From Nitrospirota bacterium (lineage in GTDB: Bacteria; Nitrospirota; Thermodesulfovibrionia; UBA6902): a stretch of 54,088 bases of DNA. Both the position numbers and the translations under genes were made by a program. The DNA is taken from assembly GCA_016215115.1 (NCBI GenBank), contig JACRLN010000027.1:1-54088 (forward strand), given 5' to 3'. The notes below the pieces were generated by a model. That model did not search any database. It saw only the letters and a list, made by a program, of their open reading frames with translations, and had not been told where the DNA came from. Positions 38,167 through 51,004 of this stretch are shown piece by piece (the first letter of the stretch is position 1; each line of letters opens with the position of its first letter).

Positions 38167-38374
<208 letters not shown>

Positions 38375-38409
38375 TTGACAAAATTATAATTTGGGAATAA
38401 AATCCCAAA
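38375..38409 (+). promoter_or_regulatory. promoter overlapped by GGGA-N6-TCCC palindrome (module 1)
   Basis: TTGACA (38375-38380), 17-bp spacer, TAAAAT (38398-38403). The -10 lies inside GGGAATAAAATCCC, itself within a 20-base near-palindrome 38390-38409. The layout is identical to that at 40876-40910, including the 15-base distance from -35 to palindrome. Confidence 0.75.
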
Positions 38410-38413
38410 TATG

Positions 38414-38455
38414 GTGATTTCGATCACAGACTATGTTGCGCCTGAGCTTTATCAT
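38414..38455 (+). promoter_or_regulatory. CRP/FNR-type box and class II promoter (module 1)
   Basis: GTGATTTCGATCAC (38414-38427) has the perfect CRP core GTGAT-N4-ATCAC. A TATCAT hexamer at 38450-38455 follows after exactly 22 bases, placing the box at about -41.5, the classical activator position. Module 2 repeats the spacing. Confidence 0.7.
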
Positions 38456-38531
38456 AGAAGAATATTGATGTTTGAATTTGTTCTTTGAAAATTAAATTTT
38501 GCTTTTTGTATGACATAACTATCCCAGTGTA

Positions 38532-38551
38532 TGAAAATGAATACATTTTCA
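38532..38551. repeat. TGAAAATG/CATTTTCA hairpin
   Basis: An eight-base perfect stem with loop AATA lies between the two regulatory modules. No T-run follows. It might stabilise or pause a transcript from module 1. Confidence 0.5.
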
Positions 38552-38597
38552 CTTCCCTGAATATTTAGGTTGCCAATAATTCAAAGAGTTAACGAAT

Positions 38598-38613
38598 TGG
38601 AATGAATATTGCA
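38598..38613 (+). promoter_or_regulatory. possible sigma-54 promoter
   Basis: TGGAATGAATATTGCA keeps GG and GC at the correct ten-base spacing but lacks the usual C after TGG. A start about 12 bases later would fall in the palindrome of module 2. It is weaker than the other two sigma-54 sites in this window. Confidence 0.4.
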
Positions 38614-38622
38614 TTATAGAAT

Positions 38623-38636
38623 GGGAAAATAATCCC
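38623..38636. promoter_or_regulatory. GGGA-N6-TCCC palindrome (module 2)
   Basis: GGGAAAATAATCCC is the second copy of the operator-like palindrome, followed by AAATA as in module 1 and then the second CRP-type box. Confidence 0.65.
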
Positions 38637-38641
38637 AAATA

Positions 38642-38683
38642 GTGATCTGCATCACGGACGGGATCGTTAATTTGACATATTAT
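38642..38683 (+). promoter_or_regulatory. CRP/FNR-type box and class II promoter (module 2)
   Basis: GTGATCTGCATCAC (38642-38655) is followed after 22 bases by TATTAT (38678-38683), reproducing module 1 spacing exactly. It is the promoter nearest the cytochrome gene, with a predicted start near 38690. Confidence 0.72.
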
Positions 38684-38742
38684 AAAAAATAATTTAACTG
38701 CTTATAGAAAACTGAGCGTAAATGGTTAGAGACATTTTTTAA

Positions 38743-38842: not shown

Positions 38843-40759
38843 ATGAGAAAGGCATCAATAGTATCACTATGTATTATCGCCCTTGCAGTATTTACTGTAT
38901 GGGCATCCGATGTTATGGCTTACGAGACATGGTCGGGCTGCCAATCGTGTCACGGCGGTTTTCGTACCGTTCCTTATACATCACTTGCTGACGGGAAATC
39001 ATGGGCAAGCGGTCTGCATGATACGCATCGATACACGATGTTAAACGGAGATTGCAGTACTTGTCATTTCGGCACTGGCAAGACACCGGTTTATATCAAC
39101 ATGTCCAACGGTGGAAGCGGACTGACCAAGGTGGGTTGCGTAGGCTGCCACGGCCGCGCAGAAGACAGTAATAATGTCGGTACTGTAAAGAGCGGAGCGG
39201 GCTTGCGTCAGCATCACTATAGGGCTGGAGAGACAGTGTGTTTAGGTTGTCACAATGATGCGAACCCGGCAAAATATAAACCCGTATCCGAGAAGACGGC
39301 GCCGCCGTATTACTTCACACCGGACGCGGCGCATCCGGGTAAACCCACCAGCAGTTGCAACGATTCAGGAAAAGAGAACTTTGCAGCCTCGACCGCAGGA
39401 CTGGACAATGACGGAGACGGCCTGTACGACGCTGCAGATCCTGATTGCCAGGCTGCGGCAGCATGTATTGATGCTGACGGCGACGGCTATGGCTCTAACG
39501 GAGCGGCTACCTGTGCGAAGGGTACCGCAGTTGACTGCAATGACAACGACCCGACAGTCAATCCGGGAGCTGCTGACAATACCTGTAACGGAATCGATGA
39601 AAATTGCAGCGGAACAGCCGATGAGGGTTATGTTCCGACAAGTACACTGTGCGGCAAAGGTATTTGCGCATCCACAGGTCAGTTAGCCTGCCAGAGCGGT
39701 AAAACCGTAGACACCTGCATTGCCGGAACTCCGCAGACAGAGGGACCGGCCGGCAGTCCTACATGCAGTGATTCGCGGGATAATGATTGCGATGGCGCAA
39801 CCGACGCTGCCGATTCTAACTGCGCGTCGGCATGCGTACCTACAACAGAAGTCTGTGATGGTATAGATAATGACTGCGACGGACAGGTGGATGAAGGTAT
39901 CGCCTCGATACCTACGACCTGTGGCGTCGGTTCATGCGCATCCACAGGCCAGTCAACTTGTCAGGGCGGCAAAATGGTAGACAGCTGCACTGCCGGAACT
40001 CCGCAGACAGAGGGACCGGCCGGTAGTCCTACATGCAGTGATTCGCGGGACAATGATTGCGATGGCACAACCGACTCTGCCGATTCTAACTGCGCGTCGG
40101 CATGCGTACCTACAACAGAAGTCTGTGATGGTGTAGATAATAACTGTGATGGCCAGATAGACGAAGGCGTAAAAAATACCTATTACAGAGATGCAGACAG
40201 AGATGGTTATGGCAACCCGTCGGTTTCAAAACAAAGCTGTAAAAAACCTTCCGGTTATGTAAAGGACAATACCGACTGCAACGACTCAAATAAAAAAATC
40301 CATCCAGGCGCCGGCGAAATATGCGACGGCAAAGACAATAACTGTAATGGCGAGATAGATGAAGGTGTAACAAAGACTTATTACAGGGATGCTGATGGAG
40401 ACAGGTATGGTGACTCGACGGTTTCAATACAAGAGTGCAGTAGGCCTTCCGGCTATGTAAAAAACAATACCGACTGCAATGACTCAAACCGGAAAGTCCA
40501 TGCAGGCACCGCTGCAATATGCGGGAGTCAAGCTGACCAGAGCTGTAACGGCATAATTGATTGCAGCAATCCTGCTTGTTACACAAATCCATCATGCAGT
40601 AATCCGGATGATAAAGAGCATGATGGTGATGATGATGGCGATGATGGTAATGAAAATGATTTTTCACACAATTCCGGAATGGATTGCATAAGCTGTCATA
40701 CACCTCACAACGCGATAACTGATTGTATGTCATGTCACTCAGGATTAACAGGCAAATAA
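38843..40759 (+). CDS. secreted six-haem cytochrome with Cys/Asp-rich metal-binding repeats
   Basis: A signal peptide (cleaved near VMAYE) precedes four CXXCH haem sites (CQSCH, CSTCH, CVGCH, CLGCH) within the first 140 residues. About 430 residues of repeats follow, of the type DADGDGYG...DCNDNDP..NPGA...CDGIDNDCDGQVDEG, the putative metal-binding PF11617 pattern. The last 30 residues hold two more haem sites (CISCH, CMSCH) after an Asp/His-rich linker. A 90-residue unit is tandemly duplicated almost exactly (39719-39890 versus 39989-40160). It is probably a periplasmic or cell-surface electron carrier with a Ca2+-binding stalk. AGAGGAG precedes the ATG. Confidence 0.85.
   Translation: MRKASIVSLCIIALAVFTVWASDVMAYETWSGCQSCHGGFRTVPYTSLADGKSWASGLHDTHRYTMLNGDCSTCHFGTGKTPVYINMSNGGSGLTKVGCVGCHGRAEDSNNVGTVKSGAGLRQHHYRAGETVCLGCHNDANPAKYKPVSEKTAPPYYFTPDAAHPGKPTSSCNDSGKENFAASTAGLDNDGDGLYDAADPDCQAAAACIDADGDGYGSNGAATCAKGTAVDCNDNDPTVNPGAADNTCNGIDENCSGTADEGYVPTSTLCGKGICASTGQLACQSGKTVDTCIAGTPQTEGPAGSPTCSDSRDNDCDGATDAADSNCASACVPTTEVCDGIDNDCDGQVDEGIASIPTTCGVGSCASTGQSTCQGGKMVDSCTAGTPQTEGPAGSPTCSDSRDNDCDGTTDSADSNCASACVPTTEVCDGVDNNCDGQIDEGVKNTYYRDADRDGYGNPSVSKQSCKKPSGYVKDNTDCNDSNKKIHPGAGEICDGKDNNCNGEIDEGVTKTYYRDADGDRYGDSTVSIQECSRPSGYVKNNTDCNDSNRKVHAGTAAICGSQADQSCNGIIDCSNPACYTNPSCSNPDDKEHDGDDDGDDGNENDFSHNSGMDCISCHTPHNAITDCMSCHSGLTGK
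39719..40160 (+). repeat. 270-bp tandem duplication inside the cytochrome gene
   Basis: The stretch from 39719 to about 39890 recurs at 39989 to about 40160 with only scattered substitutions, an offset of exactly 270 bp (90 codons). The bases between the two blocks are less alike. Confidence 0.85.
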
Positions 40760-40875: not shown

Positions 40876-40910
40876 TTGACAAAACATATAATTGGGATTA
40901 TAATCCCAAT
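40876..40910 (+). promoter_or_regulatory. near-consensus promoter with -10 inside GGGATTATAATCCC
   Basis: TTGACA (40876-40881), 17-bp spacer and TATAAT (40899-40904) are a perfect sigma-70 consensus. The -10 forms the centre of GGGATTATAATCCC, within a 20-base perfect palindrome (40891-40910). The expected start, 7-8 bases after the -10, coincides with the ATG at 40912. Confidence 0.85.
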
Positions 40911-40911
40911 T

Positions 40912-41715
40912 ATGGACACCAACTTAAAGAAGGCGGTTTCTTCCGCAATTGTGCGGTTGCTCCATCCTCTCTTAAAAATACTTTTACGCAATGGTATTCC
41001 ATACGGCACCTTCTGTGAACTTGCCAAGTGGGTATATGTCGATGTTGCTTCACGTGAATTTGTCATTCAGGGGAGAAAACAGACTGATTCCCGCATTGCT
41101 ACTATAACCGGACTATCCAGGAAGGAAGTAAGACGTTTGAGGGGAATAAGCGTTTTTGATGATTTAGGTTCTCCCGAACGGTATAATCGCGCTGTAAGGG
41201 TCATTAGCGGATGGCGCCAGGACCAGGACTTTCTTAATAGTAAAGGTCTTCCCAGGGAACTGTCTTTTGAAGGTGCGCAAGCAAGTTTTTCATCACTTGT
41301 TAAAAGTTACAGCGGCGATATTCCTCCAAGGGCCATACTTGATGAAATGTTAAGAGCAGGCGTTATAGATGTAAAGAAAGGGAAAATTAAATTATTGTCG
41401 AAGGGGTATATCGTAAAAAAAGAAGAAAGCCAAAAGATACAGATCCTTGGTGACGATGTGAGCGAGTTGATTTCGACGATTAACCACAATCTTGACTGTG
41501 AAGCATCAGAAACTTTTTTCCAGAGGAAGGTATCATATGACAACATACCTGAAGATGTGCTTGTAAAGTTGAGAAAACTATTGTCAAAGAAGAGCGAAGA
41601 TTTTACGGAATCAATAGATAAAGTAATTTCACGATATGACAGAGACGTCAATCCTGCTGTAAAAGAGAAAGGTGAACGCAGAAAAGCGGGGTTAGGCATC
41701 TTTTATTTTGAATAA
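40912..41715 (+). CDS. DUF6502 family protein, probable regulator, leaderless
   Basis: From the ATG at 40912 the protein is 267 residues (MDTNLKKAVSSAIVRLLHPL...). The N-terminal part resembles a winged-helix module (YGTFCELAKWVYVDVASREF; DSRIATITGLSRKEVRRLRG). DUF6502 proteins are often next to DUF5666 lipoproteins, as here. A TTG at 40876 would extend the frame but lies within the promoter, so I reject it. There is no ribosome site, as expected for a leaderless mRNA. The shared palindrome suggests autoregulation and control of the cytochrome gene. Confidence 0.78.
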   Translation: MDTNLKKAVSSAIVRLLHPLLKILLRNGIPYGTFCELAKWVYVDVASREFVIQGRKQTDSRIATITGLSRKEVRRLRGISVFDDLGSPERYNRAVRVISGWRQDQDFLNSKGLPRELSFEGAQASFSSLVKSYSGDIPPRAILDEMLRAGVIDVKKGKIKLLSKGYIVKKEESQKIQILGDDVSELISTINHNLDCEASETFFQRKVSYDNIPEDVLVKLRKLLSKKSEDFTESIDKVISRYDRDVNPAVKEKGERRKAGLGIFYFE

Positions 41716-41736: not shown

Positions 41737-42720
41737 ATGAGGTTTATGAATAGATTTTTCAGGGTAAAAACAAAATTAGCTGTAATTGCCGCGCTTCTTT
41801 TAATTATAGTTATTATAGTTATTGCCTGCGGCGGTGGTGGGGGAGGCGGAGGTAGCACAGCCGGTGGTGGAGTCAGCGGGACAGGAAGGTCCACTGGAAC
41901 TGTCACCGCTTTTGGAAGTGTATTTGTGAACGGTATCGAGTTTGAAACAACATCAGCCACGATTACTGTAAATAATAATAGCGCAACACAAAGCGACCTC
42001 AAAATAGGTATGAAAGTTACTGTTGAGGCTGTTAATGATGTTGCCTCATCGATAGAATATGAGTCAGAGGTAAAAGGCCGGGTAAGTAACAAAGGTGGTA
42101 ATTCGTTTGATGTCCTCGGACAGACTGTAAAAGTGAACACTCAAACGGAATACTGTTTAAATGATGAGCAGGTCAATTGCACCTTTTCTTTTGCGGATTT
42201 AAGTAAAGATGATTTTGTTGAGGTGAGCGGATATTTTGATAAAGATAGAAATATAATTGCAACGCTGGTGAAGAAGGATGACCAGGATCCGGGAAAATAC
42301 CAGGTAAAAGGATTTGTCTCGGGTCTTGTTCCGGGCCAAATATTTTTTATAAACACTTTAGCCGTAGATTACAACGACTTAGATCCCTCAGGTATTGCTG
42401 ATGGTGTTTTTGTAGAAGTTAAAGGTAGATTGAACACCCCGGATGAACTTTGGCTTACAGCAGAAGATATAGAGGTTGAAGATACCCAGGCCTCACCGGG
42501 CAAGGAGCTTAGCCTTGAGGGTATCGTCACGCAGTTTACTTCACAAAATGACTTTGAAGTGAACGGACAAACGGTACTGACAAACAGTCAGACACAATTC
42601 GAAGGAGACCCGGCATCGATAGCATTGAATGTAAAAGTAGAAGTTGAAGGAACTGTGAACAGCAAGGGTGTTCTCGTTGCAAAGGAAGTGAATATCGAAG
42701 ATACCGATATTGAAGATTGA
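41737..42720 (+). CDS. DUF5666 lipoprotein
   Basis: The start at 41737 has GGAGG five bases before it; an upstream ATG at 41725 carries that ribosome site in its own codons. The 327-residue protein has a hydrophobic signal and lipobox (IVIAC), then a run of eight Gly. It is followed by repeated small beta-barrel modules (TGTVTAFGSVFVNGIEFETTSATITVN; VKGRVSNKGGNSFDVLGQTVKVN; LEGIVTQFTSQNDFEVNGQTVLTN) typical of DUF5666. Probably outer-membrane anchored; function unknown. It follows DUF6502 by 21 bases and is likely co-transcribed. Confidence 0.85.
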   Translation: MRFMNRFFRVKTKLAVIAALLLIIVIIVIACGGGGGGGGSTAGGGVSGTGRSTGTVTAFGSVFVNGIEFETTSATITVNNNSATQSDLKIGMKVTVEAVNDVASSIEYESEVKGRVSNKGGNSFDVLGQTVKVNTQTEYCLNDEQVNCTFSFADLSKDDFVEVSGYFDKDRNIIATLVKKDDQDPGKYQVKGFVSGLVPGQIFFINTLAVDYNDLDPSGIADGVFVEVKGRLNTPDELWLTAEDIEVEDTQASPGKELSLEGIVTQFTSQNDFEVNGQTVLTNSQTQFEGDPASIALNVKVEVEGTVNSKGVLVAKEVNIEDTDIED

Positions 42721-42939: not shown

Positions 42940-42959
42940 GCCACCTTAGCTCAGTCGGA
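42940..42959 (+). pseudogene. 5' fragment of a tRNA gene
   Basis: GCCACCTTAGCTCAGTCGG matches the acceptor 5' strand and D-arm beginning of a tRNA, but the following bases do not complete a D-loop, anticodon arm or 3' half. It lies just left of the G+C-rich ATPase operon and may be a site of past integration. The rest of the 384-bp gap (42721-43104) besides copy F holds nothing I recognise. Confidence 0.55.
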
Positions 42960-43104
42960 TAATCTAACCTCTTTATCCTTAACTGATTTTTCAGAAAATC
43001 ATAAATCTGTCCAAAAGCCCAATCTCCTGAGATTTATGCCGGCATCAACACTCACCCGGCACACGATGCCTTGTTTTTTGGCTATTTCCTGCTAAGATAT
43101 TATT

Positions 43105-43416
43105 ATGAAAGAGGATGTCCTTGGGGCAGTAGTTGAAGTTGAAAAGGAGATAGCCGGCAACCTTGCACATGAAAAGAGCAGCGCTGCAGAATTTCTCGGA
43201 AAACTGAGAAGTGACTCTGAGAAAGAGATCCTGAGGGAAGAAAAACGTCTGCAGTTTGCCCTGGACAAGGCAGTATCAGAAGCAGTTGCGAATACAGAGA
43301 AAAAGGCCTCACAAATACTGGAAGATGCAGATGCATATTCTAATACGCTTGTAACACTGAGCGATGACGTATTGAGGGTGATCATCAGGAAACATATTAC
43401 CAGGATACTGCCATGA
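43105..43416 (+). CDS. V/A-type ATPase subunit H (G-like) of the peripheral stalk
   Basis: The 103-residue protein is a continuous, charged, Ala/Glu/Lys-rich coiled coil (VEVEKEIAGNLAHEKSSAAEFL...EKKASQILEDA). It has the size and position of subunit H, which pairs with subunit E in the peripheral stalk. It is first in the operon and overlaps subunit I by four bases. No clear ribosome site or promoter is visible. Confidence 0.7.
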   Translation: MKEDVLGAVVEVEKEIAGNLAHEKSSAAEFLGKLRSDSEKEILREEKRLQFALDKAVSEAVANTEKKASQILEDADAYSNTLVTLSDDVLRVIIRKHITRILP

Positions 43417-45308
43417 TCGTCAGGATGTCCAAGATAGAGATAGCAGGTCCAAGGGAGCTGCTGGAAAGTGTTCTGTCCCTTTTAAGGGACCGGGGGATTC
43501 TTGAGATCGAGCCAAGCGCCATCGGGTTCGTGGAAAAAAAAGATGAGGTGTATATCGATACCTTTATCCCGGATAACAGCACCTTCTCGGAAAAGATGTT
43601 CCTCGAAGAGCTCAGGAGCAGGATAGACGAACTCCTCGCGTGTCTGCCCTCGCCAAGAAAAAATAACCGTTATCTTGAACCACGCTCTATCATCTATACT
43701 ATCAGCGAGACCCTTCAGCGCCATCTGCCGGCCTGCAAAAAACTGTACCGGGATAAAGAGGCATTGCAGAAGGAACTGGCAGAACTCAGCCTTTACAATT
43801 TCTTCCTCGATGCAGTTGAACCCCTCCTTGAAGACATGAAAAAGGGGCCGGACCTCGACTTTATCGGTCTTACTCTGAAAGATCCGGCTGCGGAAATGAT
43901 CCTGAGAAAGGCCTTATCCCACCTGTCCGATGACAAGTTTGAGCTTCTCACAACAATTGCTTCAGACGGCACCATCGTGGGACTCATAGCGCTTCAGAAA
44001 AATACTTCAGACCGCATAAAGAAGGCCCTCAGTGACAAAAACATACCGGAGCTCAGGTTCCCGCCCTCTTTTGGAGACCTCCCCTTTGTTGAAAAGGTCA
44101 GTTTTTTGAAGAAAAGGACCTCTGATATATCCGGTGAGCTCGATCTGATCCATATGCAACTGGACAGTTTCTCACTCAAATGGGGCGCGATTTACAAGAG
44201 GGTCAGGGAATGGATAGAAGAGCGCCTGTCGCTGATCAAAGCTACTGCTTCGGCCTTCGTTACCCGCATGTGCTTTTTCATCTACGGCTGGATGGCAACG
44301 GAAGACGTTGAGAAACTGAGAGAGGACCTGAGCAGGGATTTTATGGGGAGCGTTGTTCTTGAAGAGCTCGAGATCCGTGAAGAAGACCTTGAGAAAATGC
44401 CGGTTATCCTGAGAAATCCGGCCTATTTTAAGCCCTTTGAACTTTTCACAAGGATCCTTCCCCTGCCCCGATACACCTCCTATGACCCGACACCATTCAT
44501 CGGGATATTTTTCCCTGTCTTCTTCGGGATGATCCTTGGAGATGCGGGATACGGATTCATAATCATCATTGTGTCCTTACTCATTTTAAAGAGAGCCAGG
44601 AAAAATGAAACTGTTCAGAACGCCTGCAAGATACTGGTCGTCTCGGCATTCTATGCCATAATCTTTGGAATTCTCTACGGGGAGTTTTTCGGCGAACTGG
44701 GGCAAAAACTCTTTGGCCTTACGCCTCTCTTTGTTGAAAGACGCACAGCAGTCATGCCAATGCTGTACTTTTCCGTCTCTGTCGGCATCGTCCATGTCCT
44801 GCTCGGGACATTCCTCGGATTCATAATCGCCCTGAAGAAAAGAACAAAGAAAGAGGCGCTCCTGAAATTTATTCACATCCTGTTTATTCTGTGCATAGTA
44901 TTGCTTGTGGCCGCTGTATTCGGGTTCTTCCCCGGGCTGATGACAAGACCCATGATCCTGACCATACTCTTCATTACCCCTTTTCTTTTCTTTGCCGGGG
45001 GACTGCTCGCTCCTCTTGAAGTGCTCAAGAGCATAGGGAATATCATCTCTTATGCAAGGATCATGGCGATCGGGCTCACCTCCGTGCTCCTTGCATCTGT
45101 GGCAAACCGTCTTGCAGGGATGACGGGAGACATCATACTCGGCGTTGTGGTAGCCGGACTGCTGCATCTGCTGAACATAATCATAGGCGTTTTTTCTCCA
45201 ACGATACATTCATTGCGGCTCCACTATGTCGAGTTTTTCAATAAGTTCATTGAATCCGGAGGGAGAAGATTTGAACCTTTCAAAAAGAATTCGAAGGAAG
45301 TCATTTAA
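43413..45308 (+). CDS. V/A-type ATPase subunit I (a-like membrane subunit)
   Basis: The 631-residue protein has a cytoplasmic N-terminal half with coiled coils and a C-terminal half of about seven membrane segments (PTPFIGIFFPVFFGMILGDAGYGF...; RIMAIGLTSVLLASVANRLAG). The Arg in SYARIMAIGL corresponds to the essential half-channel arginine. It forms the stator side of ion translocation next to the K ring. It overlaps subunit H by four bases. Confidence 0.93.
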   Translation: MIVRMSKIEIAGPRELLESVLSLLRDRGILEIEPSAIGFVEKKDEVYIDTFIPDNSTFSEKMFLEELRSRIDELLACLPSPRKNNRYLEPRSIIYTISETLQRHLPACKKLYRDKEALQKELAELSLYNFFLDAVEPLLEDMKKGPDLDFIGLTLKDPAAEMILRKALSHLSDDKFELLTTIASDGTIVGLIALQKNTSDRIKKALSDKNIPELRFPPSFGDLPFVEKVSFLKKRTSDISGELDLIHMQLDSFSLKWGAIYKRVREWIEERLSLIKATASAFVTRMCFFIYGWMATEDVEKLREDLSRDFMGSVVLEELEIREEDLEKMPVILRNPAYFKPFELFTRILPLPRYTSYDPTPFIGIFFPVFFGMILGDAGYGFIIIIVSLLILKRARKNETVQNACKILVVSAFYAIIFGILYGEFFGELGQKLFGLTPLFVERRTAVMPMLYFSVSVGIVHVLLGTFLGFIIALKKRTKKEALLKFIHILFILCIVLLVAAVFGFFPGLMTRPMILTILFITPFLFFAGGLLAPLEVLKSIGNIISYARIMAIGLTSVLLASVANRLAGMTGDIILGVVVAGLLHLLNIIIGVFSPTIHSLRLHYVEFFNKFIESGGRRFEPFKKNSKEVI

Positions 45309-45320
45309 AGGAGGGAAACA

Positions 45321-45542
45321 ATGAATCTGGAAAAAGTACTTATGGCATTTGCCGCCGCGCTTGCGATCGGGCTCCCGGCCCTTGCAACCGCATGGGCACA
45401 GTCAAAGATCGGCTCCGCGGGCGCCGGCACACTCGCCGAAAAACCGGAACTCAGCGCTACAGTGATCATCATGATCGCGATACCGGAGACCATGGTCATC
45501 CTCGGTTTTGTTGTCGCAGCCATGATCCTTTTCGGGGTGTGA
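45321..45542 (+). CDS. V/A-type ATPase subunit K (proteolipid c ring)
   Basis: The 73-residue protein is a single two-helix hairpin with a Gly/Ala-rich loop (KIGSAGAGTLAEKPE). The ion-carrying Glu56 lies in AIPETM of helix 2. The helix-1 position that is Gln in Na+-specific rings (Pro plus four) is Thr23, while Thr57 follows the Glu, so ion choice (H+ or Na+) is not settled by eye. The short, non-duplicated form is as in Thermus and many archaea. AGGAGGG precedes the ATG. Confidence 0.93.
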   Translation: MNLEKVLMAFAAALAIGLPALATAWAQSKIGSAGAGTLAEKPELSATVIIMIAIPETMVILGFVVAAMILFGV

Positions 45543-45546
45543 GGAT

Positions 45547-46131
45547 ATGGGATATCAGGAGTTGATCGATTCCCTCAGAAAAGAAGGGGAGAAGAAGGCT
45601 CAGGCCCTCCGGGCTGAGACCCGGGCTCAAGCGGATAAGATAACGTCCGAGACAGCCGGAAAGATCAAACAGCTCAGGGAAGAGTTCAGAAAAAAAGAAA
45701 CAGCCCTGATCATGAAACAGGGAAATGATGTGCTTTCTGCGGCAGAGAACAGGGCCCGTTCAATAAGGCTTTCAGCAGAGGAATCGCTGTCCGCCCGGCT
45801 CTTTGAGTTTGCCGGATCAATGCTCCATGATCTGCGGGATGCCCGGTATACGGCAGTGTTTGCATCTCTTGTTAAAGAGCTGCCGCCCTCTGCATGGATT
45901 GAAGCGCTGGTGAATCAGGATGATGTCGGCATGGCCCTTGTCCATTTCCCCGGTATTAACATCATTGGTGACAACAGGATCAGCGGCGGGATAGATGTGT
46001 CTGCTGAAAACAGCAGGCAGCGTATCATCAATACCTTTGAAAAGAGACTCGAAAGGGCTTGGGAGGAAATGCTCCCCTCTCTCATTCACGAGGTCCGGAA
46101 GGAAGCGTCGGCACATGATATTACTGTGTGA
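45547..46131 (+). CDS. V/A-type ATPase subunit E
   Basis: The 194-residue protein has a long N-terminal coiled coil (LIDSLRKEGEKKAQALRAETRAQADKITSE...) and a globular C-terminal part with GGIDVSAENSRQRIINTFEKRLERAWEEMLP, the characteristic subunit-E end. It forms the peripheral stalk with subunit H. It starts four bases after subunit K and overlaps the subunit C start. Confidence 0.9.
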   Translation: MGYQELIDSLRKEGEKKAQALRAETRAQADKITSETAGKIKQLREEFRKKETALIMKQGNDVLSAAENRARSIRLSAEESLSARLFEFAGSMLHDLRDARYTAVFASLVKELPPSAWIEALVNQDDVGMALVHFPGINIIGDNRISGGIDVSAENSRQRIINTFEKRLERAWEEMLPSLIHEVRKEASAHDITV

Positions 46132-47083
46132 CATTGAGGACAGAGGGTATCCCACGGATTATCTGCTCGCACGGATACACGGCAGACGCGCATTCCTGCT
46201 GAAGGACTGGGAAAAGGTCCTCTTCAGCCTTGATATCTCCGGGTACCTCATGTCAACACGGTATAGTAAGTTCATATCCGGATATCCGGCAGATGGGATC
46301 CTGAGACGATACCAGGAGGAATTACAGTGGATGTATTATCAGATGAACAAGAATTTAAGACATATTTTTGGGCCATGCTTCATGTACGCTGAACTGGGCA
46401 CCCTTCTGACATGCCTGAGATATCATCTGAAAAAAGGCAAAAAAACAGAAATAGAGTACATCCTCGCCTTCAGTCTGCTTTCCGAAAGAGTAAAGAATAT
46501 CCTGTCCCTTGAGTCTGACCTGCCATTCATACTGGAGATGCTGGATAAGAGAGCCGCATTCTTATCAGACAGTCCTGCCGGACTCAGCGATATCTTTATA
46601 ACAGGAGGATTGCCTGAAGTAGAGCAGACAATAACACGTACACTGCTTGAACACATAATGCATGAGCCGGGTCATCCCTGCATAACACGTTTTTTCATTT
46701 CTCTCATAGACTCAATAAATATCATCACCCTTTATAAACACCTGAGATGGGAAATGAGCGCAAAACCCGCATTCATCACAGGAGGGAAGGTCAAAGAAAC
46801 TGTCCTCAGCGCGATACTCCATTCCCGTGATGTCTCTGAGATCACCGGTCTCATACAGAAGCATACCGGTTTTTATGTCGGGAGACCGGCCGCTGCAAAT
46901 GTTGAGAGCGCCTTACTGAAAGGGATATCGGGACAGGTAAAAAAAATGGAAAGGGAAAGCCCGGATATCGGGCTCATCCTTAATTACCTGTGGAGATTTT
47001 TTCTGGAGGCGCGGGATCTCAGCATCCTGTACTACGGGAATAAGATTGATAAAGACATTATCAGGGAAGAACTGGTGCATTGA
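46115..47083 (+). CDS. V/A-type ATPase subunit C (d-like)
   Basis: The longer open frame begins at 45995, but residues before MILLCDIEDRGYPTDYLLAR are antisense-like to subunit E. The ATG at 46115 (GGAAG nine bases upstream) gives a 322-residue protein. Its helical content and position between E and F fit subunit C, the funnel linking the central rotor to the K ring. Sequence conservation is low in this family, so the call leans on operon order. Confidence 0.78.
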   Translation: MILLCDIEDRGYPTDYLLARIHGRRAFLLKDWEKVLFSLDISGYLMSTRYSKFISGYPADGILRRYQEELQWMYYQMNKNLRHIFGPCFMYAELGTLLTCLRYHLKKGKKTEIEYILAFSLLSERVKNILSLESDLPFILEMLDKRAAFLSDSPAGLSDIFITGGLPEVEQTITRTLLEHIMHEPGHPCITRFFISLIDSINIITLYKHLRWEMSAKPAFITGGKVKETVLSAILHSRDVSEITGLIQKHTGFYVGRPAAANVESALLKGISGQVKKMERESPDIGLILNYLWRFFLEARDLSILYYGNKIDKDIIREELVH

Positions 47084-47085
47084 AG

Positions 47086-47406
47086 ATGAAAAAGATCGCC
47101 TTTATAACACCAAAGGATACGGAGTTTGGTTTTCTGCTGGCCGGCGTAAACCAGTACGTTACCGGGAAAGAGGATTTCATTCCCATGCTGAAAAGCATAC
47201 TGCCTGATCCGGACACCGTGCTTGTCATTGTTGATGAACGGCTGGTAAGAGACGGTAATGAGGAGAAAATGAGAGAGATAGAACATGCGTGGGACGGGAT
47301 ACTCATCGTACTCCCGTCGCCTGAACGGCCCATGGAAGAGATAGAAGACTATGCATCAAGGCTCATCCGAAGGGCCATAGGCTATCACGTGAGGCTGAAA
47401 ATATGA
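47086..47406 (+). CDS. V/A-type ATPase subunit F
   Basis: The 106-residue protein (KKIAFITPKDTEFGFLLAGV...TVLVIVDERLV...) has the Rossmann-like fold pattern of subunit F of the central rotor. The frame opens with TTG at 47080, but ATG at 47086 is more likely. It overlaps the start of subunit A by four bases. Confidence 0.9.
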   Translation: MKKIAFITPKDTEFGFLLAGVNQYVTGKEDFIPMLKSILPDPDTVLVIVDERLVRDGNEEKMREIEHAWDGILIVLPSPERPMEEIEDYASRLIRRAIGYHVRLKI

Positions 47407-49028
47407 GGGGCAGGATAACAGGGATATCAGGACCGACAGTCAGTGTTGACATGAAAGGATTGAAACTGTACGAACTGGTTCATGTCGGCAACGCCATGCT
47501 TACAGGCGAGGTTGTTAAATTAGAAGAAAAAAGGGCCATTGTCCAGGTCTATGAAGATACGCGGGGACTGGGGCCTGATGAACCGGTACAAGGTACCGGA
47601 ATGCCGATGACCGTGAAGCTTGGCCCCGGTCTTCTTTCCGGTATGTTCGACGGCCTTCAGAGACCGTTATACAAATTAAAGGACCTTTCAGGGCCTTTTA
47701 TCAGGCCGGCACAGGATGTATCAGCGCTGGACCCTGCAGGTCAGTGGGTATTTCATCCCCTCAGGAAAAAAGGTGACGAGGTCGGCAGGAATGAAATGAT
47801 CGGGTATGTGGAGGAAAATCATTTTCAGCATTTTATCGCGTGTCCACACAATTCTGGTGGAAGACTCTCATGGATCGCTGACGGGAACATACGTATTGAT
47901 GAGCCGGTGGGGAGACTTGAGGATGGAAGCGGGATAGCGGTTTACCATGAATGGTCTGTGAGGGTGCCAAGGCCGTATATACGCAAATTTTCCCCTTATG
48001 AACCGCTCGTGACAGGCCAGAGGGCCATAGATTTTCTCTTTACCATAGCAAAGGGAGGCACCGCGATCATGCCCGGCGGCTTCGGCACCGGAAAAACGAT
48101 CCTTGAGCAGTCGATCGCAAAGTTCGCCGATGTCGATATCGTTGTGTATGCAGGATGCGGTGAACGGGGCAACGAGATGGCGGAGATGATAGAAGAGTTT
48201 GAGCACCTGAAGGACCCGTGGACCGGAAGCTCACTGATGGAAAGGACTTTGCTCGTGATCAATACGTCGAACATGCCCGTCGCTGCACGGGAGGCATCAA
48301 TCTATACCGCTATCACCATGGCGGAGTATTACAGGGACATGGGCTATCATGTGCTCCTCCTCGCTGACAGCATATCACGGTGGGCAGAGGCCTTAAGGGA
48401 GATATCTTCATCGCTTGAGGAGATGCCGGGGGAGGAAGGTTATCCGACCTATCTCGCGTCAAGGCTCTCGAGCTTTGCTGAAAGGGCAGGCGTTGTTGAA
48501 ACATACAGCGGCAAGATCGGCTCGCTCAGCATGGTGCTGTCCGTATCGCCTCCCGGAGGAGATTTTACTGAACCGGTTACTCAGTCATGCCTTAGGACCA
48601 CAGGGACCTTTCTCATGCTTGATACATCCCTTGCCCATAGAAGGCATTTCCCCGCGATCAACTGGTTTCAGAGCTATTCACTTTACCGTGCCGAGCTCTC
48701 CGGATACTACAGGGAGAATGTCTCACAAAAATGGGAAGAAGTGCAGATGAGTTGCAGGGACCTTCTGCAGAAAGAAGAGGCGCTGAGAGAAGTTGTCGAG
48801 ATCGTCGGTTTAGAAGGGATCCAGGATCCAGACAGGCTCCTGCTTCACGCGGCTGAAATGATCCGGACACAGTTTCTTAACCAGAACGCATATACAGACG
48901 ACGCCTTTTCATCACTGGACAAAACCCTTGCATCAATAGAGCGGATACTTGATTTTTATAAACATGCGGCAGAGCGGCTGAAGCAGGGAGCTGCGATCGA
49001 TGAGATACTTTCCGGGATCTCTTTTTGA
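47403..49028 (+). CDS. V/A-type ATPase catalytic subunit A
   Basis: Catalytic motifs are GGFGTGKT (P-loop, where GPFGSGKT is more usual), [58 protein letters not shown] in order, and [13 protein letters not shown]. The non-homologous insertion after the beta-barrel domain is present. At 541 residues it is about 40 shorter than the family average, mainly by shorter loops. It forms the A3B3 head with subunit B, making or hydrolysing ATP. Confidence 0.97.
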
Positions 49029-49034
49029 ATTTAT

Positions 49035-50390
49035 ATGCGACTCTCAGAACACAGATATAAGACTATAACCTCCATCGCAGGGCCCCTGTTATTTGTTCAG
49101 GGAATTTTCAGCGCAAGGATCGGTGAGGTCGTGAAAATCCTCACGCCCGATGAAAGGCAGCTTGAAGGAGAGGTCCTTGAGATCAGGGAAGACACGATAC
49201 TGATCGAGGTGTTTGCCGAGACACGGGGACTGGACATTGAAAGGTCTTCGATAGTTTTAACTGATACCCTCAGAACTGCCTCCCTGTCTCCCGATATCAC
49301 CGGAAGGATTTTCAACGGCTCCTTCGTCCCCATAGACGGCCTTCCGATGTTCATCCCGGAAAAGAAGATGCCCATAAGCGGTTTCGCCATCAATCCTACT
49401 GCACGGGCAAGGCCGGAAGAGTTTATTGAAACCGGCATCTCGGTTATTGATGGGCTGAACACCCTTGTTAAAGGGCAGAAACTCCCTGTCTTTTCCTGCT
49501 CCGGCCTGCCATCAAAAGAGGTCGTGGCCGCGATACTGAAAAATTCAAGGACCATGAATGCCGGTACTGATCCGTCCGGGAACAGGACAAAAAGAGAAAG
49601 TGACGGGTTTATTATTGTCTTTTCAGCACTGGGACTGACATTCCGCGATTACTCTTACTATATGCACATTCTGAAGGAAATGGGATCGAGGTTTGTTGCC
49701 TTCATCAACATGGCAGATGAGCCGGCCATGGAAAGACTGCTCGCGCCGAGGTTTGCCCTGACCGTCGCTGAGTATCTTGCATTTGATAAAGGCATGGATG
49801 TGCTGGTGATCATTACTGATATGACAAATTACTGCGACGCCCTGAGAGAGGTATCCACTGCACGGGAGGAACTGCCGGGCAGGAGAGGTTACCCGGGCTT
49901 CATGTACTCTGACCTTGCCTCTCTTTACGAACGGGCCGGACGCATACGTGGACTGAACGGTTCTGTGACCATGCTGCCTGTTGTTACCATGCCTGAAGAT
50001 GATATTACCCATCCGATCCCCGACCTGACCGGTTATATCACTGAGGGACAGATAGTGTTGAGCCGCGAACTCCACCAGAAAGGGATATTCCCGCCGGTGG
50101 ATGTGCTTCCAAGCCTTTCAAGGCTTATGCAGAGAGGGATCGGAGAAGGGCACACGAGGAGCGATCATAGAAAGGTATCGAACCACCTGTATAAATATTA
50201 TGCAAAAGGCAGAGACCTGAGAAGGCTTGAGGCGATCATTGGAAGAGAAGGCATGTCAGAGAAGGACAGGATCATGCTCGATTTCACAGATGCATTCGAA
50301 AGAGAGTTTGTCCATCAGGGAATGACAAGGAGGACGGTCCCTGAGACCCTTGACGCGGGGTTGAATCTGCTGAAAAGGTTTTCACTATGA
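49035..50390 (+). CDS. V/A-type ATPase regulatory subunit B
   Basis: The 451-residue protein has no P-loop in the usual position. It has FSCSGLPSKEV, FINMADEPAMERLLAPRFALTVAEYLAFDKGMDVLVI, the DMTNYCDALREVSTAREELPGRRGYPGFMYSDLASLYERAGR block and TMPEDDITHPIPDLTGYITEGQI. These define the non-catalytic B subunit. It begins seven bases after subunit A and overlaps subunit D by four. Confidence 0.97.
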   Translation: MRLSEHRYKTITSIAGPLLFVQGIFSARIGEVVKILTPDERQLEGEVLEIREDTILIEVFAETRGLDIERSSIVLTDTLRTASLSPDITGRIFNGSFVPIDGLPMFIPEKKMPISGFAINPTARARPEEFIETGISVIDGLNTLVKGQKLPVFSCSGLPSKEVVAAILKNSRTMNAGTDPSGNRTKRESDGFIIVFSALGLTFRDYSYYMHILKEMGSRFVAFINMADEPAMERLLAPRFALTVAEYLAFDKGMDVLVIITDMTNYCDALREVSTAREELPGRRGYPGFMYSDLASLYERAGRIRGLNGSVTMLPVVTMPEDDITHPIPDLTGYITEGQIVLSRELHQKGIFPPVDVLPSLSRLMQRGIGEGHTRSDHRKVSNHLYKYYAKGRDLRRLEAIIGREGMSEKDRIMLDFTDAFEREFVHQGMTRRTVPETLDAGLNLLKRFSL

Positions 50391-51004
50391 TCATCCATCA
50401 TACCAGGTCCAATCTCCTGCTGATGAAGGAAAAAGCGGTCTCCGTCGGTAACAGTATCGGCATCCTGAAGGCACGGCGGCAGGCGCTGATACAGGAATTT
50501 CTCAATACCACAATGCCCTTCCTCAGGACAAGGAAGGATATCACAGAAACCTACGGCAAGGCCCTTGATGAACTGGCGCTAAGCCTCGGCCACATGGGCA
50601 GGATTGGCGTAGAGTCAATAACATATGCCTTAAAGAGAGATATGAGGGTGAACATAACTGAAAAAAGCATCTGGGGGCTGAAATACAAAGATGTGATCGT
50701 ACATGATGCCCCGGTCAGGGACCCTGACGCGCGGGGGTATGACATTACGGCAACGCCCCCCCGTCTTGAAGAATGCATATACTTCTTTGAGAAGATCCTG
50801 GACTCGATGCTTGAGATAGCAGCCTATGAGAGCAAACTGAAAAGACTAAGCGATGAGATAACGAAGAGCACCCGGAAAATAAAAGTACTGGAAGAAAGAA
50901 TACTCCCTGACCTGAGATACCAGATCAGGACCATTACACAATATATCAGTGAAAGAGAACGTGAGACGTATTTCAGGCTGAAAAGATTCAAAGGTTCTCT
51001 CTGA
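50387..51004 (+). CDS. V/A-type ATPase subunit D (rotor shaft)
   Basis: The 205-residue protein is a long antiparallel coiled coil with RSNLLLMKEKAVSVGNSIGILKARRQAL at the N-terminus and IRTITQYISERERETYFRLKRFK at the end, matching subunit D of the central stalk. It ends the operon H-I-K-E-C-F-A-B-D. No terminator is obvious in the 44 bases after it. Confidence 0.94.
   Translation: MIIHHTRSNLLLMKEKAVSVGNSIGILKARRQALIQEFLNTTMPFLRTRKDITETYGKALDELALSLGHMGRIGVESITYALKRDMRVNITEKSIWGLKYKDVIVHDAPVRDPDARGYDITATPPRLEECIYFFEKILDSMLEIAAYESKLKRLSDEITKSTRKIKVLEERILPDLRYQIRTITQYISERERETYFRLKRFKGSL

Follow-up and report, generated by a model that had tools for sequence, protein, structure and literature searches.

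HetR is the heterocyst master regulator of cyanobacteria; its fold is made up of a DBD, a flap and a hood in an intertwined dimer, and the protein is inhibited by PatS/RGSGR peptides. It binds GGG-N5-CCC palindromes, is auto-regulated, and mainly activates the direct targets that have been reported for it (PMC4649674, PMC4192349). The autorepressed winged-helix regulators offer a second comparison, with a self-regulating operon and an operator over the promoter, as we propose here for DUF6502. No paper dealing with DUF6502 by name was found in the library searched, and its function is undescribed; DUF5666 appears in four papers there, one of which, an Acidithiobacillus magnetite study, merely lists it. 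From one DUF6502 gene in a 54,088-nt stretch of Nitrospirota DNA (Thermodesulfovibrionia; the window) and its relatives, this uncharacterised family gains a putative function, a candidate DNA site and a candidate target set. The features around the gene are as follows.

40876..40881, + strand: -35 hexamer TTGACA of the DUF6502 promoter (from the sequence; kept in most homologous promoters)
40888..40913, no strand: proposed DUF6502 operator, a 26-bp perfect palindrome, ATAATTGGGATTATAATCCCAATTAT (from the sequence)
40892-40909, no strand: operator core TTGGGA-N6-TCCCAA (exact twice in the genome; conserved at DUF6502 starts)
40899..40904, + strand: -10 hexamer TATAAT, within the operator (from the sequence; register fixed in relatives)
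40912..41715, + strand: DUF6502 gene, 267 aa (PF20112, E 1.4e-75)
41737..42720, + strand: DUF5666 lipoprotein-like gene with its own Shine-Dalgarno sequence, GGAGG (PF18914, E 2.3e-38)

The DUF5666 gene lies directly downstream of DUF6502 in 43 of 48 loci, and we propose it as the second gene of an operon with DUF6502. After it, a short sequence similar to the 5' half of a tRNA (GCCACCTTAGCTCAGTCGGATAATC, by eye only) is found at 42940-42980, and genes of a V/A-type ATPase operon (V_ATPase_I) occupy 43105-51001 further downstream.

The DUF6502 protein and its likeness to HetR

The protein scored 254 bits against PF20112 over residues 7-267, compared to a gathering score of 27 bits. The AlphaFold model (pLDDT 83, from a 43-sequence alignment) predicts two helices at the N-terminus, an HTH (about residues 59-77), a winged helix (86-165) and, at the C-terminus, two long helices, in agreement with the winged-helix-like features attributed to DUF6502 in the first-pass annotation. 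Residues S60, R61, G67, L68, R70 and K71 of the HTH are invariant. In alphaproteobacterial copies, which are only about 30% identical overall, conservation is highest in the HTH. No Pfam HTH family passed its cut-off in DUF6502, and no copy was found in phage records. A structure search with pdb_via returned sigma region 4 and other HTHs over residues 29-82, which we set aside as generic HTH matches. The MarR, IclR and CRP-like HTH families gave local HTH and winged-helix matches to the model, whereas DUF6502 has family-specific extra N- and C-terminal helices.

Using the whole model as a Foldseek query, we found that the best three PDB matches were all HetR (E 1.5e-3, prob 0.99), while the rest had E-values of 0.19 or worse; comparison by VIA gave Z 7.6 and an rmsd of 10.6 A over 208 residues. 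A second model, of a more distant member, again returned HetR first (Foldseek E 7.4e-3, prob 0.98; VIA Z 8.1, rmsd 10.4 A, 217 residues), the two models having been built from nearly identical sequence sets. HetR (PDB 4HRI, 4YRV, 4J00, 3QOD) was matched over the whole DUF6502 chain with an overall rmsd of 10-11 A, and the two proteins share the order of N-terminal HTH, middle part and C-terminal part. The likeness appears to be more than geometric, because HetR reads GGG/CCC palindromes, which it has in common with the candidate DUF6502 sites described below, and because its auto-regulation is matched by our proposal. The two systems differ in the GGG/CCC spacing (N5 for HetR; N8 in the Nitrospirota candidate sites and N7 in those of alphaproteobacteria), in the position of the DUF6502 operator, which unlike that of HetR sits on the -10, and in the partner PatS, of which no counterpart is known for DUF6502.

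Sequence comparisons between DUF6502 and HetR were negative throughout: hhalign gave a probability of 0.2% and E 0.39, profile Smith-Waterman scores were no better than those of shuffles, hmmsearch on PDB sequences detected no homology, and the Pfam families S48/HetR_C (PF03574/PF18460) did not match. A search for HetR-like genes on plasmids, made to deepen the HetR profile, found none. Since every sequence homology test was negative, we do not file DUF6502 as a HetR, and since the spacing also differs and the models come from nearly the same sequences, we treat the kinship as a lead. It is conceivable, though doubtful, that DUF6502 is a non-cyanobacterial relative of HetR in a wider superfamily that auto-represses through GGG/CCC palindromes over the -10 and controls cytochromes of extracellular electron transfer in Nitrospirota and Pseudomonadota. 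If the resemblance is true, the heterocyst regulator belongs to a broader family.

Promoter and proposed operator of the DUF6502 gene

The consensus promoter TTGACA-17-TATAAT that had been noted before DUF6502 is read directly in the sequence, with 17 nt between the two hexamers. The palindrome around its -10, first described as 20 bp long, is perfectly symmetric as claimed and extends to 26 bp (40888-40913). The ATG at 40912-40914 lies 7 nt past the -10, at the palindrome edge. As the ATG follows the -10 so closely and a Shine-Dalgarno sequence is absent, both of which are kept in relatives, the DUF6502 mRNA should be leaderless, with a predicted start at 40911-40912.

Searching for GGGATTATAATCCC with at most two mismatches, we found 3 matches in the window against 0.35 expected, a number reached by 1 of 100 shuffles; these matches are not due to chance. 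Exact TTGGGAN6TCCCAA occurs twice in the whole 2.82-Mb genome, at 38391 and 40892, both in the window. A genome scan with a 36-nt promoter-plus-site model gave position 38375 (E 5e-9) and position 40876 (E 4e-8), followed by weaker reverse-strand readings of both promoters, a third copy at 38616, and then nothing better than E 6.2. In the host, the promoter-operator is found only at DUF6502 and the adjoining haem-protein gene.

DUF6502 is very probably a DNA-binding regulator, and it probably represses its own gene and cytochrome genes by covering the -10. The protein, probably dimeric, would recognise TTGGGA-N6-TCCCAA sequence-specifically, with TTGGGATTATAATCCCAA as its putative DNA target. 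Because the site, centred at about -11, wraps the -10, binding of the protein would exclude RNA polymerase and vice versa, and DUF6502 would repress its own gene and so set its own level. The operator leaves no space for a leader, which again points to a leaderless mRNA. Repression is the simplest reading of a site near -11 of a near-consensus promoter, where a bound dimer would block RNA polymerase, and autorepression, proposed from operator position, co-occurrence and predicted fold together, is further suggested by DUF6502's own gene being the most constant target. The promoter design is unusually clean, with the operator serving as the -10 and a predicted leaderless start, and can be tested in E. 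coli.

It is rather unlikely that DUF6502 instead uses the site as a HetR-like activator, or both represses and activates. The nearest fold is HetR, whose direct targets are reported to be mainly activated (PMC4649674, PMC4192349), and a near-consensus promoter could be one whose escape an activator aids; however, a site over the -10 (about -11) of a near-consensus promoter with 17-bp spacing is the layout of steric repression, unlike that of upstream activation. That the palindrome acts as an RNA hairpin or terminator is scarcely credible, for although it could fold if transcribed from upstream, it lies ahead of the predicted start and lacks a T-run, and most relatives have an asymmetric centre.

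We aligned the upstream DNA of 48 DUF6502 genes and found TGGGA-N6-TCCCA with at most one mismatch in 36 of them, exact in 29. In 33 of these 36 genes the core ends 1-5 nt ahead of the start codon, the distance being 3 nt in 21 of them, and a Shine-Dalgarno sequence is lacking. At two loci the site is 21-23 nt upstream and GAGG is present; its return there fits a leaderless reading of the other DUF6502 genes. The consensus from 23 promoters is TTGACAAAnnnnAnATTTGGGAATATAATCCCAAAT, and the conserved element is TTGACA-N10-TTGGGA-N6-TCCCAA, which encloses the -10. Perfect symmetry was rejected as a conserved feature; since the centre is usually asymmetric, the conserved part comprises the two TTGGGA arms and the -10 between them, and the perfect symmetry in the window appears to be a special case.

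These comparisons also bear on the idea that the gene has a mere strong leaderless promoter, whose palindrome simply follows from what a promoter and a start codon require. Part of the conserved letters can be put down to the -10 and the ATG, but GGGA and TCCC, the most conserved letters of the consensus, are no promoter elements, they are retained at targets without an adjacent start codon, and the motif is missing from genomes without DUF6502. We consider this idea highly improbable beside repression by DUF6502.

Absence of the palindrome from other DUF6502 loci had been named beforehand as evidence against the proposal. The site was present at the start codon (at most one mismatch) in 23 of 24 loci outside f27, the family of Nitrospira-like and most strongly matching DUF6502 copies, and in 13 of 24 inside it. 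In roughly half of the f27 promoters the site at the gene itself is degenerate or missing, and several f27 loci that lack it keep the -10 just ahead of the ATG with the arms lost. Other variants were seen as well. The right arm reads TACCA, not TCCCA, in L041, L042 and L043 (family f13) and in L039, and the three f13 loci carry a third small lipoprotein gene with a DUF4382-like start (by eye) after the DUF6502-DUF5666 pair. In one DUF6502 promoter (L050, locus bases 257-1160, - strand) a perfect palindrome of 42 bp, CTCTCATTATATTTGGGATTATAATCCCAAATATAATGAGAG, precedes a GAGG-bearing leader, and in genome G159 there are three matches to DUF6502 and eight exact sites.

The haem-protein promoter and its candidate operator copies

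The nearest relative is L037, a Thermodesulfovibrionia MAG whose DUF6502 is 81% identical and which keeps the order cytochrome, DUF6502, DUF5666 together with both operators. The features upstream of DUF6502 in the window are listed below.

38375..38380, + strand: -35 TTGACA of the cytochrome promoter (from the sequence; conserved in L037)
38391..38408, no strand: second operator, TTGGGAATAAAATCCCAA, TTGGGA-N6-TCCCAA (motif and model scans; conserved block in L037)
38398-38403: -10 TAAAAT inside the second operator (spacer 17 nt)
38414..38427, no strand: dyad GTGATTTCGATCAC, centred 21 bp downstream of the 38391 operator (same distance in L037)
38621..38638, no strand: third, diverged operator copy, ATGGGAAAATAATCCCAA (1 mismatch; without a good -35)
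38642..38655, no strand: dyad GTGATCTGCATCAC, centred 19 bp downstream of the 38621 operator
38843..40759, + strand: exported haem protein, the proposed regulated neighbour (PF11617, E 2e-40; syntenic in L037)

The haem protein contains 6 CXXCH motifs and MopE-type repeats (PF11617). Its gene also has recent internal duplications, of 233 bp at 90% and 191 bp at 78% identity, and a tRNA-Pro-like gene (38170-38242, by eye only) lies just upstream of the cytochrome promoter.

The first-pass annotation had placed the same palindrome and promoter geometry upstream of the cytochrome, with an ATG at the same distance. The geometry holds (TTGACA-17-TAAAAT), whereas the centre of the second operator (38391-38408) is asymmetric, unlike the perfect palindrome at DUF6502. 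The ATG at 38411 is no gene start: we rejected it as a leaderless start because its reading frame is short and unconserved, with 25 codons here and 11 in L037, and it overlaps a second conserved dyad. Operator and promoter of the cytochrome form a conserved block in L037, where the remaining intergenic sequence has diverged. The third copy (38621-38638), which had been overlooked, apparently arose when the 38391 module was duplicated locally; the two are 77.6% identical over 49 bp. The module of operator and GTGAT dyad is thus present twice in the window (38360-38700) and once in L037, and its doubling appears to be a lineage-specific promoter duplication.

The GTGAT-N4-ATCAC dyad has 3 copies in the genome and is missing from the DUF6502 promoter. 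Because it is so rare, a second regulatory input at the cytochrome promoter is likely in both the window and L037. These dyads beside the cytochrome operators resemble CRP/FNR-type sites (GTGA-N6-TCAC) and are separate from the DUF6502 operator; no CRP-type HTH exceeded the Pfam cut-off in the host genome.

Distribution of the site and the candidate regulon

DUF6502 is encoded in 47 of 296 Nitrospirota genomes. The exact motif TTGGGAWWWWWWTCCCAA was found in 23 of the 296, 22 of which encode DUF6502 (Fisher P ~3e-19, a statistic that ignores shared ancestry), while a reversed control pattern matched 1 genome. Among high-quality genomes the motif occurred with DUF6502 in 18 of 18. The one exception is G059, a 71% complete genome from a genus in which the other sampled members carry DUF6502. 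The promoter-operator model matched 27 genomes, 25 of them with DUF6502, and the motif sites are spread over several families. Two model matches in G172, a genome without DUF6502, cover the promoter half and part of the site (positions 1-28) only, and were taken as chance or unrelated for these two reasons.

This co-occurrence speaks to whether a separate, unlinked transcription factor binds the palindrome, with DUF6502 merely one of its targets. DUF6502 as the binder is our inference, and a separate redox regulator could run a cytochrome regulon. Against this, the motif tracks DUF6502 phylum-wide (22 of 23 genomes; 25 of 27 with the model), the site is found at the start of the DUF6502 gene, and the DUF6502 protein has a predicted HTH and winged helix of its own, so that we regard an unlinked factor as improbable and retain DUF6502 as the probable binder.

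Sites also precede other genes. TTGACA-N10-site geometry was found before operons of proteins with 31-42 CXXCH motifs (G008, G017, G026, G042, G049), sites with a weaker -35 before 24-27-CXXCH operons in f27 genomes (G153, G257, G281, G287), and in G160 the gene of a 36-CXXCH protein follows the DUF6502-DUF5666 pair. The multihaem proteins tested with Pfam were Cytochrome_C7/c3/MtrC-like. Further site-bearing genes encode ankyrin-repeat proteins, a beta-barrel-like protein, ATP-grasp proteins and small lipoproteins. By plain count, sites of this geometry away from DUF6502 commonly stand ahead of 24-42-haem cytochrome operons, suggesting that the palindrome is also a putative regulon site before multihaem cytochromes. 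The same near-consensus promoter and operator would thus serve the haem-protein gene here and, in relatives, multihaem c-type cytochrome operons and envelope-lipoprotein genes, and DUF6502 may keep these electron-transfer and envelope genes off or at a low level for as long as no signal releases it. This would provide an inroad into the control of giant multihaem cytochromes in Nitrospirota, where genetic tools are few.

The family reaches about 16% of the sampled Nitrospirota genomes and also Pseudomonadota plasmids, where the evidence comes from plasmids only (11 copies read) and DUF6502-DUF5666 pairs were found on those of alphaproteobacteria. No TGGGA-N5-TCCCA was found upstream of the Rhizobium plasmid copies, and the Mesorhizobium copy has a partial version of the site. 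TGGGA-N5-TCCCA is present upstream in Microvirga (two), Methylocystis, Pseudoroseomonas and Azospirillum, often alongside a further half-site; the alphaproteobacterial half-site is the same as that of Nitrospirota, and the spacing is one base shorter.
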